From Clostridia bacterium (GTDB lineage: Bacteria; Bacillota; Clostridia; Christensenellales; Aristaeellaceae), in contig JAFUDS010000004.1 of NCBI GenBank assembly GCA_017464305.1, forward strand, positions 28,285 to 92,284: a stretch of 64,000 nt of DNA, in the 5' to 3' direction. Position numbers and translations under genes: made by a program. This document shows, piece by piece, positions 44,900-48,129 of this stretch. A model generated the notes under the pieces. The model was not told the origin of the DNA. It made no database searches and saw nothing but the letters and a program-made list of their open reading frames with translations. Numbering within the stretch: the stretch's first letter is position 1; each line of letters opens with the position of its first letter.

Positions 44900-44986
44900 T
44901 TGCTGCGTTTGAAGCTCATTCTGCTAGCACATGATCGAAAAAGAGAATTTATCCGGGAAAAGGACGGAAAAACATCGAAGCCATAA
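44900..44986 (+). CDS. Candidate small protein, 28 residues
   Basis: TTG 44900 is preceded by a strong GAAGGAGGAG and opens a frame to TAA at 44984-44986, directly before a terminator. The product starts with a hydrophobic half (MLRLKLILLAHD) and continues with a highly basic half (RKREFIREKDGKTSKP). No homologue is recognised. The RBS and terminator are the only support. Confidence 0.3.
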   Translation: MLRLKLILLAHDRKREFIREKDGKTSKP

Positions 44987-44990
44987 AGAG

Positions 44991-45016
44991 AACCTATGGT
45001 AAGTCATAGGTTTTTT
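44991..45016 (+). terminator. Terminator before the met leader
   Basis: AACCTATG (44991-44998) pairs with CATAGGTT (45005-45012), followed by T residues to 45016. It ends transcripts from the amino-acid kinase gene. Confidence 0.85.
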
Positions 45017-45019
45017 CTT

Positions 45020-45049
45020 TTGGACAGGGGATAAACGATGTGTTATCTT
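45020..45049 (+). promoter_or_regulatory. Promoter of the metNIQ leader
   Basis: TTGGAC (45020-45025), 18-bp spacer, TATCTT (45044-45049) with TGT just upstream. The predicted start is near 45057, giving a leader of about 190 nt before metN. Confidence 0.6.
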
Positions 45050-45089
45050 ATGACTCGTTCCGGGAGAAAGCGGGAAAGGGGGAGGATTC

Positions 45090-45179
45090 ATGAAGCGGAT
45101 ACACGATCTGCGGATGCGCGACACCATGGAGATGTGGATGGGCATGTCCTCTTCTTTGCGGCGTGTTTTTCCGGGATAG
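45090..45179 (+). CDS. Methionine-rich leader peptide of metNIQ
   Basis: A 29-codon ORF is preceded by a strong GGGGGAGG and ends at TAG 45177. Six of its residues are Met (1, 9, 13, 15, 17, 19), with the core MEMWMGM, in front of a methionine transporter operon and followed by an intrinsic terminator 16 nt after the stop. This is the layout of amino-acid leader peptides such as TrpL or HisL. A stalled ribosome on the Met codons would free UUUGCGGC (45155-45162) to pair with GCCGCGGA (45201-45208) and break the terminator; a ribosome at the stop codon would cover the region. The mechanism is inferred. Confidence 0.6.
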   Translation: MKRIHDLRMRDTMEMWMGMSSSLRRVFPG

Positions 45180-45194
45180 GGGTGATCGCATGTT

Positions 45195-45224
45195 CCGGCA
45201 GCCGCGGAGGCCGCCGGTTTTTTT
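45195..45224 (+). terminator. Attenuator terminator upstream of metN
   Basis: CCGGCAGCC (45195-45203) pairs with GGCCGCCGG (45209-45217) with one A-C mismatch, loop GCGGA, followed by seven T residues (45218-45224). It lies inside the metN 5' UTR, 23 bp before the start codon. Confidence 0.88.
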
Positions 45225-45246
45225 GTGAAAGGGATGGAGGAAAACG

Positions 45247-46293
45247 ATGGCGGATGAGGCAATGATCTCACTGCGGGGGGTGGCAAAGAACTTTGGCGGC
45301 GGCGGCCAGGAAATTCACGCCGTACAGGAGGTGACGCTGGACATCCAGCGGGGGGAAATCTTTGGCATTGTGGGCTTCTCCGGCGCGGGGAAATCCACGC
45401 TGGTGCGCTGCATGAATCTGCTGGAGGTTCCGACCAAGGGTCAGGTTTTCGTAGACGGCGTGGAGCTGACGGGGCTCAGCAAGAAGGAGCTGAACGGGCA
45501 GCGGAAGAAGATCGGCATGATCTTCCAGCAGTTTAACCTCTTCGCCAGCCGCACGGTGCTGGAGAACGTGGCCTTCCCCCTGAAGCATTCGGGGCTGAGC
45601 AAGGAGCAGATTCGGGAAAAGGCGGCGCGGCTGCTGGATTTCGTGGAGCTGGGGGAAAAGAAGGACGCCTATCCCTCCCAGCTCTCCGGCGGGCAGAAGC
45701 AGCGGGTGGCCATCGCCCGGGCTCTGGCCAGCGACCCGAAGGTGCTGCTGTGCGACGAGGCGACCTCCGCCTTGGATCCGCAGACGACCCATTCCATCCT
45801 GCAGCTGCTGAAAAAGCTGAACCAGGAATTGGGGATCACTATCGTGGTCATTACCCACCAGATGCAGGTGGTGAAGGAGATTTGCCAGCGGGTGGCGCTG
45901 ATGGAAGCCGGCCGAGTGGTGGAGCAGGGCTGGGTATACGACATCTTCGCCCAACCCCAGCAGGAGATTACCAAGGATTTCGTCGCCTCGGCGGATAATT
46001 CAAACCAGCTGAGCGAGGTGCTGGCGGAGACCAGCGTGCGGGAAAGCCTGGGGCAGGGCGCTCGGGTGTTCCGGTTCCGCTTTCTGCACACCAGCGGCGG
46101 CAAGGCCCTGGTGAGCCAGATTTCCCGGGAATTCGGCATCGACCTGAACATCATCCACGGCAATCTGGAAATGATCGACGGCCGCTTCCTGGGGGTGCTG
46201 ATCCTGCTGGCCCAAGGGGATAAACAGGCGGTGGATGACGCCCTGGCCTATGCCAGAGCGCAAGGCGTGAATGTGGAGGAGCTGCGGGGATGA
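45247..46293 (+). CDS. metN: Methionine ABC transporter ATP-binding protein
   Basis: This 348-residue ATPase has Walker A GFSGAGKSTLV, signature LSGGQKQRVAIARAL, Walker B VLLCDEATSALDP and switch VITHQM. The C-terminal NIL domain (about 265-348, 'GKALVSQISREFGIDLNIIH') binds methionine and inhibits transport in MetN proteins. RBS GATGGAGG sits just upstream. It is the first gene of metNIQ and overlaps metI by ATGA. Confidence 0.95.
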   Translation: MADEAMISLRGVAKNFGGGGQEIHAVQEVTLDIQRGEIFGIVGFSGAGKSTLVRCMNLLEVPTKGQVFVDGVELTGLSKKELNGQRKKIGMIFQQFNLFASRTVLENVAFPLKHSGLSKEQIREKAARLLDFVELGEKKDAYPSQLSGGQKQRVAIARALASDPKVLLCDEATSALDPQTTHSILQLLKKLNQELGITIVVITHQMQVVKEICQRVALMEAGRVVEQGWVYDIFAQPQQEITKDFVASADNSNQLSEVLAETSVRESLGQGARVFRFRFLHTSGGKALVSQISREFGIDLNIIHGNLEMIDGRFLGVLILLAQGDKQAVDDALAYARAQGVNVEELRG

Positions 46294-46970
46294 ACGAAAT
46301 ACTGACAAACCTTTTCCCCTATGTGATGAAGAAGCCGGAGCAGCTGTGGAAAAGCCTGAGCGAAACGCTGCAGATGACCCTGTGGAGCGGCAGCATCATG
46401 TTCGTCCTGGGGCTGGCCCTGGGGCTGCTGCTGACGGTGACCCGGGAGGGAGGCATCCTGGAAAACAAGGGGGTCTACCAGGTGTTGGACAAGGTGATTA
46501 ACATCTTCCGCTCCATTCCCTTCGTCATCCTGATCGCCCTGCTGATGAATTTGACCAAATGGATCATGGGCACCCGCATTGGGGTACGGGGCGTGATCGT
46601 GCCCCTGGTGTTTGGATCGGTGCCCTTCTTCGCCCGGCAGGTGGACGCTGCCCTGGCGGGGGTGGATAAGGGGTTGGTAGAAGCGGCCCAGGCCATGGGT
46701 ACCAGCTCCCTGGGCATCATCTTCCGGGTTTATCTGCGGGAAGGGGCGCCGGCCATCGCCCGGGGAACTACCATTACTCTGATCAACCTGGTCGGGCTCA
46801 CGGCCATGTCCGGCTATGTAGGGGCCGGCGGCCTGGGGGACTATGCCATTACCTATGGCTATAACTACAACCGGATCGATATCGTCTGGGCGGCGGTCAT
46901 CGTGACGGTGCTGCTGGTGTCCATCATTCAGGCCATCGGTTCCCTGGTGGCCCGGAAGACCACCCACTAA
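46290..46970 (+). CDS. metI: Methionine ABC transporter permease
   Basis: This 226-residue permease has five or so transmembrane helices. Family segments include WKSLSETLQMTLWSGSIMFV, NIFRSIPFVILIALLM and the EAA loop VEAAQAMGTSSLGIIFRVYL that docks on MetN. It is translationally coupled to metN. Confidence 0.95.
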   Translation: MNEILTNLFPYVMKKPEQLWKSLSETLQMTLWSGSIMFVLGLALGLLLTVTREGGILENKGVYQVLDKVINIFRSIPFVILIALLMNLTKWIMGTRIGVRGVIVPLVFGSVPFFARQVDAALAGVDKGLVEAAQAMGTSSLGIIFRVYLREGAPAIARGTTITLINLVGLTAMSGYVGAGGLGDYAITYGYNYNRIDIVWAAVIVTVLLVSIIQAIGSLVARKTTH

Positions 46971-47094
46971 TCGGGAAAATCCCGTGCCCGGTCTCCTGTT
47001 CCGATCGATCCGGACCTTCGGCGGAGGAGGCAGCGCGGGTTTCCATCATAGAGGCGAACAATATAAAAAAGGGAAATTAAAGGAGGAAAACAAA

Positions 47095-47916
47095 ATGAAG
47101 AAGATCGCGATTTTGGCTCTGGCCTTGGTGCTGGCCCTGGTGCCCACCCTGACGCTGGCGGATGAGACGGTGCGCCTGGGCGTGACTGGCGCTTTCTACG
47201 AGGATCTGTGGCAGCCGGCCATTGACAAGCTGGCGGAGGAAGGCATCAAGGTGGAACTGGTCCAGTTCAGCGATTTCTCCCTGCCCAACAACGCCCTGAA
47301 CGGCGGTGAGTTGGAAGTCAACGCCTTCCAGCATCATGCCTACTTCAATAACGACACCACCACCAACGGATATGATCTGCAGGTGCTGGCGGATACCTTT
47401 GTCATTACCATGAATCTGTATTCCGCCAAGTATCCCACCGTGGAAGAGCTGCAGGCCAAGGTAGCCGCCGGGGAAGCGGTCAACGTGGTGATCCCCAACG
47501 ACGCCACCAACCAGGGCCGGGCGCTGCTGGTGCTGAAGGACGCGGGCATCATCGATCTGACGGATGATTATGAAGGCACCCCCAACACGGAGAACGTGGT
47601 GCAGGTGGAAGGCGGCAAGGTGGAGCTGACGCCCGTCAACGCGGCCCAGACCTACCAGTTCCTGGAGGATTCCGACGCGGCGGTCATCAACGGCAACTAT
47701 GCCGCCAGCTATGGTGTGGATCCTGCCAGCGCTATTTTCCAAGAGAATGTGGACCTGTCCGACGAGCGGTTCATCTGCCTGATCGCCGTCCGGACCGCGG
47801 ACATCGACAATCCCACCTATCAGCGCGTTGCGGAGGTGTTCCGCAGCGATGTGACCACCCAGGTCGTGAAGGAAAAGTTTGATGGGTTCTTCTATCTGAC
47901 GTGGGACAACGAGTGA
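47095..47916 (+). CDS. metQ: Methionine-binding protein, MetQ/NlpA family
   Basis: This 273-residue solute-binding protein has a signal peptide ending LTLADETVRLG and the MetQ pattern: LVQFSDFSLPNNALNGGELE, VNAFQHHAYF and VNVVIPNDATNQGRALLVL. It lacks the lipobox Cys normally found in Gram-positive MetQ. ATG 47095 is fixed by AAAGGAGG; the frame is open upstream but without another RBS. Its last codons and stop lie within the left arm of a two-hairpin repeat element. Confidence 0.93.
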   Translation: MKKIAILALALVLALVPTLTLADETVRLGVTGAFYEDLWQPAIDKLAEEGIKVELVQFSDFSLPNNALNGGELEVNAFQHHAYFNNDTTTNGYDLQVLADTFVITMNLYSAKYPTVEELQAKVAAGEAVNVVIPNDATNQGRALLVLKDAGIIDLTDDYEGTPNTENVVQVEGGKVELTPVNAAQTYQFLEDSDAAVINGNYAASYGVDPASAIFQENVDLSDERFICLIAVRTADIDNPTYQRVAEVFRSDVTTQVVKEKFDGFFYLTWDNE

Positions 47917-48129
47917 TGACCCGCAGTGCGGGAAATTTCATCACTCGTTGTCTCAACCGAAAAGGAGCAAGCTGCCCAGTGGGCAGTTGCGACTGTTGAG
48001 GTTGCGGAAAGGCGAGTGATGACCCGCTGTGCGGGAAATTTCATCACTCGTTGTCTCAACCGAAAAGGAGCAAGCTGCTCAGTGGGCAGTTGCGACTATT
48101 GAGGTTGCGGAAGGACGAGTGATGACCCG
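47905..48129. repeat. Tandem two-hairpin elements, copies B and C (R3 family)
   Basis: Two direct repeats with an exact period of 103 bp (starts at 47910 and 48013) are followed by the first 14 bases of a third (48116). Copy B opens with a perfect 15-bp stem (47905-47919 with 47938-47952) whose left arm is the last three metQ codons, the TGA stop and a second TGA. It encloses CCCGC-AGT-GCGGG and AAATT. The second hairpin (CAACC...GGTTG) encloses GCAA.CTGCCC-AGT-GGGCAG.TTGC. Copy C has only 10 bp of the outer stem and a TGT loop. The architecture matches copy A at 8529-8630. Confidence 0.85.

Follow-up and report, generated by a model that had tools for sequence, protein, structure and literature searches.

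Attenuators of the his and trp type combine a leader ORF that carries control codons with terminator and antiterminator structures. SAM riboswitches and T-boxes are the familiar controls of methionine genes in Bacillota, the Met T-boxes sensing the charging of tRNA-Met. The described system closest to the locus presented here is metL of Streptomyces lividans TK24, which lies upstream of metNIQ and was proposed in 2021 to be an attenuator (PMC8079986). As described in the available part of that paper, metL resembles our locus in placing a Met/Cys-codon leader (29 aa, with the run CMCRRMC) before metNIQ, but it is leaderless and without a typical Rho-independent terminator, whereas the leader examined here is preceded by a Shine-Dalgarno (SD) sequence and followed by a strong terminator and has a computed antiterminator (PMC8079986). 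In Campylobacter jejuni, MetL was proposed in 2013 upstream of metBA (PMC3847290). It too is a short ORF, with three Met codons and proposed stalling and antitermination; the accessible text differs from our case in describing a leader of biosynthetic genes, reported from C. jejuni, coli and doylei only, and presents no alternative folds (PMC3847290). Ribo-seq methods have detected an initiation signal for this MetL, and the excerpted account of that work also suggests a leader function for a Met-rich ORF that precedes a gene for D-methionine transport (PMC11955535). In Firmicutes, as far as the available text goes, His leader peptides of hisS and hisZ are on record for bacilli (PMC2965389). 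These and the his/trp-type attenuators share leader ORF, control codons and terminator/antiterminator with our locus and serve other amino acids. Control-codon upstream ORFs for a sulfur amino acid are likewise found, in the portions available, before the Mycobacterium cys operons (PMC1262725) and as cysS uORFC-8-2 (PMC8632094), but they carry Cys rather than Met codons and belong to other genes and phyla.

Since Met leader peptides are in print for S. lividans (before metNIQ) and for Campylobacter (before metBA), the kind is already known, and an earlier note on the DNA analysed here had made more of its novelty than these reports allow. In the open-licence literature on leader peptides, methionine attenuation and metNIQ control, part of it available as excerpts, we found no Met leader peptide or Met-leader/terminator attenuator in Bacillota. 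Within this literature, the locus described below is apparently the first Met-leader/terminator attenuator in Bacillota, and apparently of a type common in its order.

Results

A Met-codon leader and a terminator precede metNIQ

The locus lies in a stretch of 64,000 nucleotides (the window) on contig C46 of a 2.53 Mb genome assembly (51 contigs, 68.6% complete). The window contains adjacent metN, metI and metQ genes (Table 1). Of the named NCBIfam models, those for met genes fit them best, yet under their cut-offs; the best model for metN, TIGR02314 (MetN), scored 394.8 bits against a cut-off of 499.7. By eye, the likely start of MetQ is MKKIAILA near position 47095. A 103-bp tandem repeat (2.1 copies, 94% matches) occupies positions 47909-48129, between metQ and a gene for a FAD-linked oxidase.

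The region upstream of metN has the makeup of an attenuator. As the earlier note had described, it contains a promoter, a 29-codon ORF with a strong ribosome binding site and six Met codons, and an intrinsic terminator placed between this leader and metN. The SD motif, GGAGG, lies at −9 to −5 relative to the start of the ORF, whose product, MKRIHDLRMRDTMEMWMGMSSSLRRVFPG, includes the cluster MEMWMGM and has no Cys. When the 300 nt upstream of metN were shuffled 5000 times, an SD-led ORF with at least four Met per 10 residues arose only twice. The promoter was the one site returned by the scan, against a shuffle mean of 0.3, and represents a sequence match only. Folds as good as the terminator were found in 2 of 200 shuffles; when the 67-nt gap was shuffled, a hairpin this stable never preceded a U tract (0 of 500), and a hairpin of any stability did so in 30 of 500. 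A simple terminator scan missed the structure, probably because of an A-C mismatch in the stem. Further upstream, a terminator-like hairpin probably marks the end of an amino-acid-kinase gene (PF00696), separating it from the metN operon.

Table 1. Positions of the leader elements and of the genes behind them in the window.
Feature	Position	Strand	Details
Terminator-like hairpin AACCTATG..CATAGGTT with T-rich tail	44991..45021	+	Hairpin scan listed the minus strand; plus-strand T tract by eye
Promoter TGGACA-17-TATCTT with TG	45021..45049	+	40 nt 5′ of leader start
Region 1, leader SD (AGGGGGAGGAU)	45077..45087	+	Pairing partner 45146-45156, from fold of 45070-45160
Leader peptide gene, 29 codons	45090..45179	+	Internal Met codons at 45114, 45126, 45132, 45138, 45144; TAG at 45177
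Region 2	45146..45165	+	45146-45156 pairs with SD (1:2); 45154-45162 and 45164-45165 form the antiterminator 5′ strand (2:3)
Inner antiterminator helix	45171..45200	+	45171-45178:45191-45198 and 45164-45165:45199-45200; mostly under a stop-codon ribosome
Intrinsic terminator hairpin, regions 3 and 4	45195..45217	+	−15.2 kcal/mol
U tract UUUUUUU (U7)	45218..45224	+	Read from sequence
metN, ABC ATPase with C-terminal NIL domain	45247..46293	+	PF00005, PF09383
metI, permease	46290..46970	+	PF00528; MetI model NF008049, 190.6 bits, cut-off 212
metQ, substrate-binding lipoprotein	46984..47916	+	PF03180; MetQ/NlpA models all under cut-off

Across the genome, MxMxMxM stretches gave 16 matches, many of them overlapping (3 with the reversed pattern as a control). 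Eleven stretches were inspected by eye, and only that of the window belonged to a short ORF with an SD in front and a terminator behind.

Met-rich leaders recur upstream of metN

A search of the order by MetN similarity matched 76 of 396 genomes at E ≤ 1e-80, with 79 rows listed. The count below uses 67 of them (27 loci from the MetN-similarity search and 40 fetched separately) and leaves aside the window, L002, L015 and L018, which were read with the genus, and eight rows that were not fetched. An SD-led ORF with at least three Met per 10 aa was present upstream of metN in 38 of the 67 loci, against 13 of 1340 shuffles and 2 of 67 antisense sequences; Met was the commonest clustered residue (38 loci), followed by Arg (18). 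A wider contig set comprised 80 loci fetched by MetN similarity, 79 of them with at least 150 nt upstream, and yielded 13 such ORFs in the 79 loci (shuffles, 11 of 1580; antisense, 0 of 79). Here Met was narrowly the commonest clustered residue (13 vs 12 each for Leu and Arg, which shuffles also yield). As a control, 571 upstream regions of mechanically listed long ORFs in the wider-set loci gave 8 hits. Six control ORFs passed a stricter cut; two of them are metN read from another start, one precedes a metQ-like gene and two are further leader-like ORFs. Leader-like Met/Cys-rich ORFs before genes other than metN were seen in L079 (MDYMMCSMCIMCCGMPKM, 2363-2663) and L089 (MCCCCNC, 1495-1795).

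Altogether 153 loci were scanned and 59 flagged; L056, L079 and L121 were dropped by eye as chance hits, leaving 56 leaders for the analyses that follow. L121 belongs to the order set, and about two such chance hits fall within 40 loci passing any count filter. L147, with a weak Met/Cys leader (MPNTNSRGHNWVMCGTACYRCSLR) and a terminator recognized by eye, was counted as leaderless in the order and stands outside the 56. L178, L185 and L186 are leader-like but under the filter; together with L016 they were labelled by hand as leaders in the tree only. At two places of the genome, L194 and L201 (G000:C6 and G000:C34), stretches of about 370 bases look identical and would be a repeat or mobile element.

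Clusters include MEMCMRM in L038, whose MetN is 65% identical to that of the window, MMMPMSCMSMMCGS in L128 and L141, NRMMRM in L144 and L168, and KMVMCMC in L153 and L175; the leader of L058 has no clear SD. By record labels, which may err as most records are metagenome bins, leader hosts belong to Bacillota, Synergistaceae, Brachyspira and Succinivibrio. The recurrence of Met codons before metN, on which the earlier note had made its reading depend, holds in the order and, among the ten MetN genes of the wider set closest to that of the window (L038-L047), in five (L038, L039, L042, L044 and L046). Among 29 loci of genus mates (L009-L037), only L017 has a convincing leader, plus L016 by eye; no close orthologue of the window metN was found in the genus, identity being at most 54% among the matches listed. 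A tree of 95 MetN N-termini makes the window sister to L038 (100/85) and requires 16 changes of the leader label, at least seven of them forced by well-supported branches, many forks being unresolved.

Met T-boxes replace the leader in some relatives

A SAM riboswitch or a T-box as the explanation of the leader was rejected. Rfam at gathering scores gave no match in the window, thus no T-box (RF00230) and no SAM riboswitch (RF00162 and others), and at E up to 1 the interval 44900-45300 returned three unrelated families only, far under their cut-offs. The earlier note, which had seen neither kind of element and had itself named an overlooked aptamer as the result that would speak against it, was right on this point. 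The search works, as the same tool recovers both T-boxes and SAM riboswitches from further loci; within the order, the Rfam run covered 60 of the 67 loci. The genome searched, at 68.6% completeness, yielded three T-boxes and no SAM riboswitch.

The leader might still contain a SAM or methionine aptamer of an uncharacterised kind, the Met ORF being incidental. Bacillota often use SAM riboswitches for their methionine genes, and L047 and L051 do contain such elements, on the upstream side of metN at a distance of some 1.3 kb or more. Against this, we weigh the absence of SAM riboswitches from the Rfam results for window and genome, the weak matches at E up to 1 being to unrelated families, and the wide divergence of the leaders in sequence, through which Met/Cys clusters are nevertheless retained; an aptamer of this sort is very improbable.

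T-boxes were found upstream of metN in five loci of the order, at gathering scores in L133 and L172 and below the cut-off (E ≤ 1.7e-11, first spotted by eye) in L130, L131 and L180. Taking as specifier the three bases before a 5-nt stretch plus GAG element, all five read AUG (Met). The same position, likewise located by eye, reads UGG, CUG and UAC in the three T-boxes of the genome under study, whose genes by eye resemble trpB, leuA and an aminotransferase. Three of the T-box rows fall among the leaders of family f10 in the MetN tree, at moderate support. Like the leaders, the Met T-boxes precede metN in the same order; they differ in binding tRNA directly through RNA, with no ORF, and are absent from the window. 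Control of metN in this order seems to lie with a Met T-box in some loci and with a Met leader in others, different devices with a shared signal.

These comparisons bear on what the leader senses. Leaders of some drug-transporter genes respond to translation slowdown, and with this precedent one could suppose that the present leader reports not methionine in particular but a general slowdown, for example by antibiotics, or a shortage of several amino acids. The mixture of Met and Cys in many relatives, and the leaders of L062, L072, L104 and L017, which contain mainly Cys, would agree with that. However, no other residue clusters nearly as often as Met in the order sample, the leader is followed by a gene for a MetN with a NIL domain, Met T-boxes stand in for the leader within the same order and the leader of the window is without Cys. 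We regard a slowdown or multi-amino-acid sensor as improbable and methionine as the likely signal.

Anatomy and possible coding signal of the leaders

Leader length across the 56 sequences has a median of 26 aa (range 14-53). A hairpin-plus-U finder, used without a shuffled control, placed a terminator in 56 of 56, beginning 3′ of the stop codon in 53 (median 22 nt), and a promoter score of at least 10 preceded 46 of the 56 leaders, against 32 of 1120 shuffles. Synonymous divergence exceeded nonsynonymous divergence (pS > pN) in 41 of 50 related leader pairs, the pairs being non-independent and Met codons having no synonymous sites; the other nine include L124/L125 and half of group f1a. The leader of L134 has an in-frame Met insertion. 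On sequence grounds, the SD, this insertion and, indirectly, the excess of pS over pN point toward translation of the leader.

A translated ORF could also be a functional Met/Cys-rich small protein, such as a metal-binding one, with the terminator merely setting stoichiometry. Short peptides rich in Met and Cys can bind metals, and many leaders have both residues; but the spread in length, the little that clades have in common beyond Met/Cys clusters, the constant position ahead of a terminator and a complementarity of the terminator 5′ arm to the post-Met region that exceeds chance over the set (see below) leave this explanation with a very small probability.

Cys codons occur in many leaders, predominating in the four named above. 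In family f1 (L145, L148, L149, L151, L155 and L165), a Cys cluster (CC or CCC) follows the Met cluster near the stop codon and is perhaps a second checkpoint, for cysteine. The Arg codon in Met-Arg-Met contexts is CGA in 12 of 22 cases, against 31 of 512 in the first 130 codons of metN from the same loci (leaders of L042, L097, L123, L144, L148, L151, L161, L167, L168, L177, L183 and L187). This excess may mark a codon that is read slowly next to Met, or may come from common descent. In L170, a ZMP/ZTP riboswitch (RF01750, 58.7 bits) lies at 288-371 of the minus strand, a few hundred bases upstream of the metN leader locus and on the opposite strand.

Computed switching between antiterminator and terminator

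The earlier note had proposed an alternative stem between UUUGCGGC (45155-45162) and GCCGCGGA (45201-45208). Both arms were found in the sequence, and their stem is included in a larger antiterminator hairpin (45154-45209; −25.4 kcal/mol, z −3.16, 1 of 200 shuffles). When the region behind the Met codons was tested for duplex formation with the terminator arm, the 56 leaders together gave a Stouffer score of −8.8, the rows being non-independent, with p < 0.05 in 14 of 56; for the window alone the test was not significant (p 0.29). A masked partition function was then used, in which the ribosome is a 31-nt mask of assumed footprint and folds are at equilibrium; here too the sequences are related. 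With the mask on the Met codons of the window, the terminator 5′ arm was paired upstream with a probability of 0.94 (shuffles 0.28), and with the mask at the stop codon with a probability of 0.34 (shuffles 0.48; switch p 0.03). In the full transcript, the terminator formed with a probability of 0.16 without ribosome, 0.05 with a stalled ribosome and 0.99 with the ribosome at the stop codon, the shuffles giving 0.65, 0.63 and 0.86. The proposed stem stood in these computed folds, the antiterminator forming with a ribosome held on the Met codons and much less with one at the stop. A ribosome at TAG 45177 had been expected to cover the left half of the stem; under the assumed footprint it spans about 45159-45189 and does cover the 3′ end of the left arm, together with the inner strand 45171-45178, rather than the left half as such.

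Across the 56 leaders, antiterminator pairing exceeded the shuffle mean in 48 when the ribosome was stalled and in 28 when it was at the stop. From stall to stop, terminator probability rose by more than 0.1 in no more than 18 of 54 leaders, against 2 of 54 for the shuffle means, and its mean at the stop lay under that of the shuffles (0.854 vs 0.920). In 8 of 56 leaders the terminator had a probability below 0.5 without ribosome. L038, the closest homologue, showed no computed switch (terminator probability 0.96-0.97 in all states, switch p 0.62). In the f14/f19 clade of ten leaders, L144 and L168 behaved as expected, three were flat and five (L153, L161, L166, L175 and L179) were reversed, the terminator being lower at the stop than when stalled. 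L017 and L169 were also reversed, a ribosome at the stop lowering the terminator, against the simple model.

Covariation of both hairpins, which the earlier note had put forward as a check, was obtained in part in a clade of ten sequences, which lends support to two mutually exclusive helices, both picked by eye on the very sequences tested. For the terminator, 98.6% of cells were paired (0 of 500 shuffles), the covariation score was reached by 0 of 500 and the count of pairs changed on both sides by 7 of 500. For the antiterminator, 91.3% of cells were paired (0 of 500) and 1 of 500 shuffles equalled the covariation score, but the number of double-sided changes (two pairs) was no higher than in shuffles (298 of 500). 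The competing inner hairpin of this clade was 96.7% conserved, with little covariation (97 of 500).

A third pairing, between the SD and the stretch just past the Met codons (1:2), was predicted when 45070-45160 was folded (−30.1 kcal/mol, z −1.67, a stability reached by 15 of 200 shuffles). Attenuation might be real and this SD-sequestering hairpin nonetheless be the decisive step, limiting leader translation, with the order of events differing in parts of the family. In the window, 1:2 pairing with the ribosome at the stop reaches 0.72, against 0.19 in shuffles; a similar pairing is made with different letters in L038, L050, L065 and L145 (by eye from folds), and the five reversed leaders of the f14/f19 clade would be accommodated. 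Family-wide, however, the pairing is not above chance, exceeding the shuffle mean in 32 (free) and 21 (at the stop) of the 56 leaders. We consider this variant unlikely, albeit the least unlikely of the alternatives, and favour stalling on the Met codons as the decisive step.

Discussion

From the elements present in the sequence, their return in relatives and the switch obtained by folding, we infer that the leader is translated, that ribosomes stall on it and in which direction control runs. Very likely the leader is a transcription attenuator of the ribosome-mediated kind, which controls metNIQ by sensing charged elongator tRNA-Met. When methionine is plentiful, the ribosome would reach TAG 45177 and shield the inner strand of the antiterminator as well as region 2 in its 3′ part; the terminator at 45195-45217 would then form and turn the operon off. 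With charged tRNA-Met in short supply, the ribosome would halt on the Met codons at 45126-45146, leaving region 2 free to build the antiterminator (45154-45209) with the loop and 5′ arm of the terminator, and transcription would read into metN, turning the operon on. The 1:2 pairing may, in addition, throttle translation of the leader. Since folding favours the antiterminator when the leader of the window is untranslated, scarcity of initiator Met would not shut the importer off.

A broader proposition, to which we give somewhat less than an even chance, is that attenuators with Met/Cys-codon leaders are the main control of metNIQ throughout the order and are found in several phyla, that they trade places with Met T-boxes and respond to both sulfur amino acids by way of two codon clusters, with a codon mix that predicts the cargo of the importer, and that an untranslated leader of the window type defaults to read-through. 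If true, default read-through would remove the difficulty that translation of the leader itself has to begin with methionine. Going by the comparative evidence, many members of the order may rely on ribosomes stalled at Met codons in place of SAM riboswitches or T-boxes. Their leaders would provide dozens of natural variants with which to probe how an attenuator senses the amino acid that starts every protein, and perhaps allow the substrate of a MetNIQ-type importer, Met or Cys, to be predicted.
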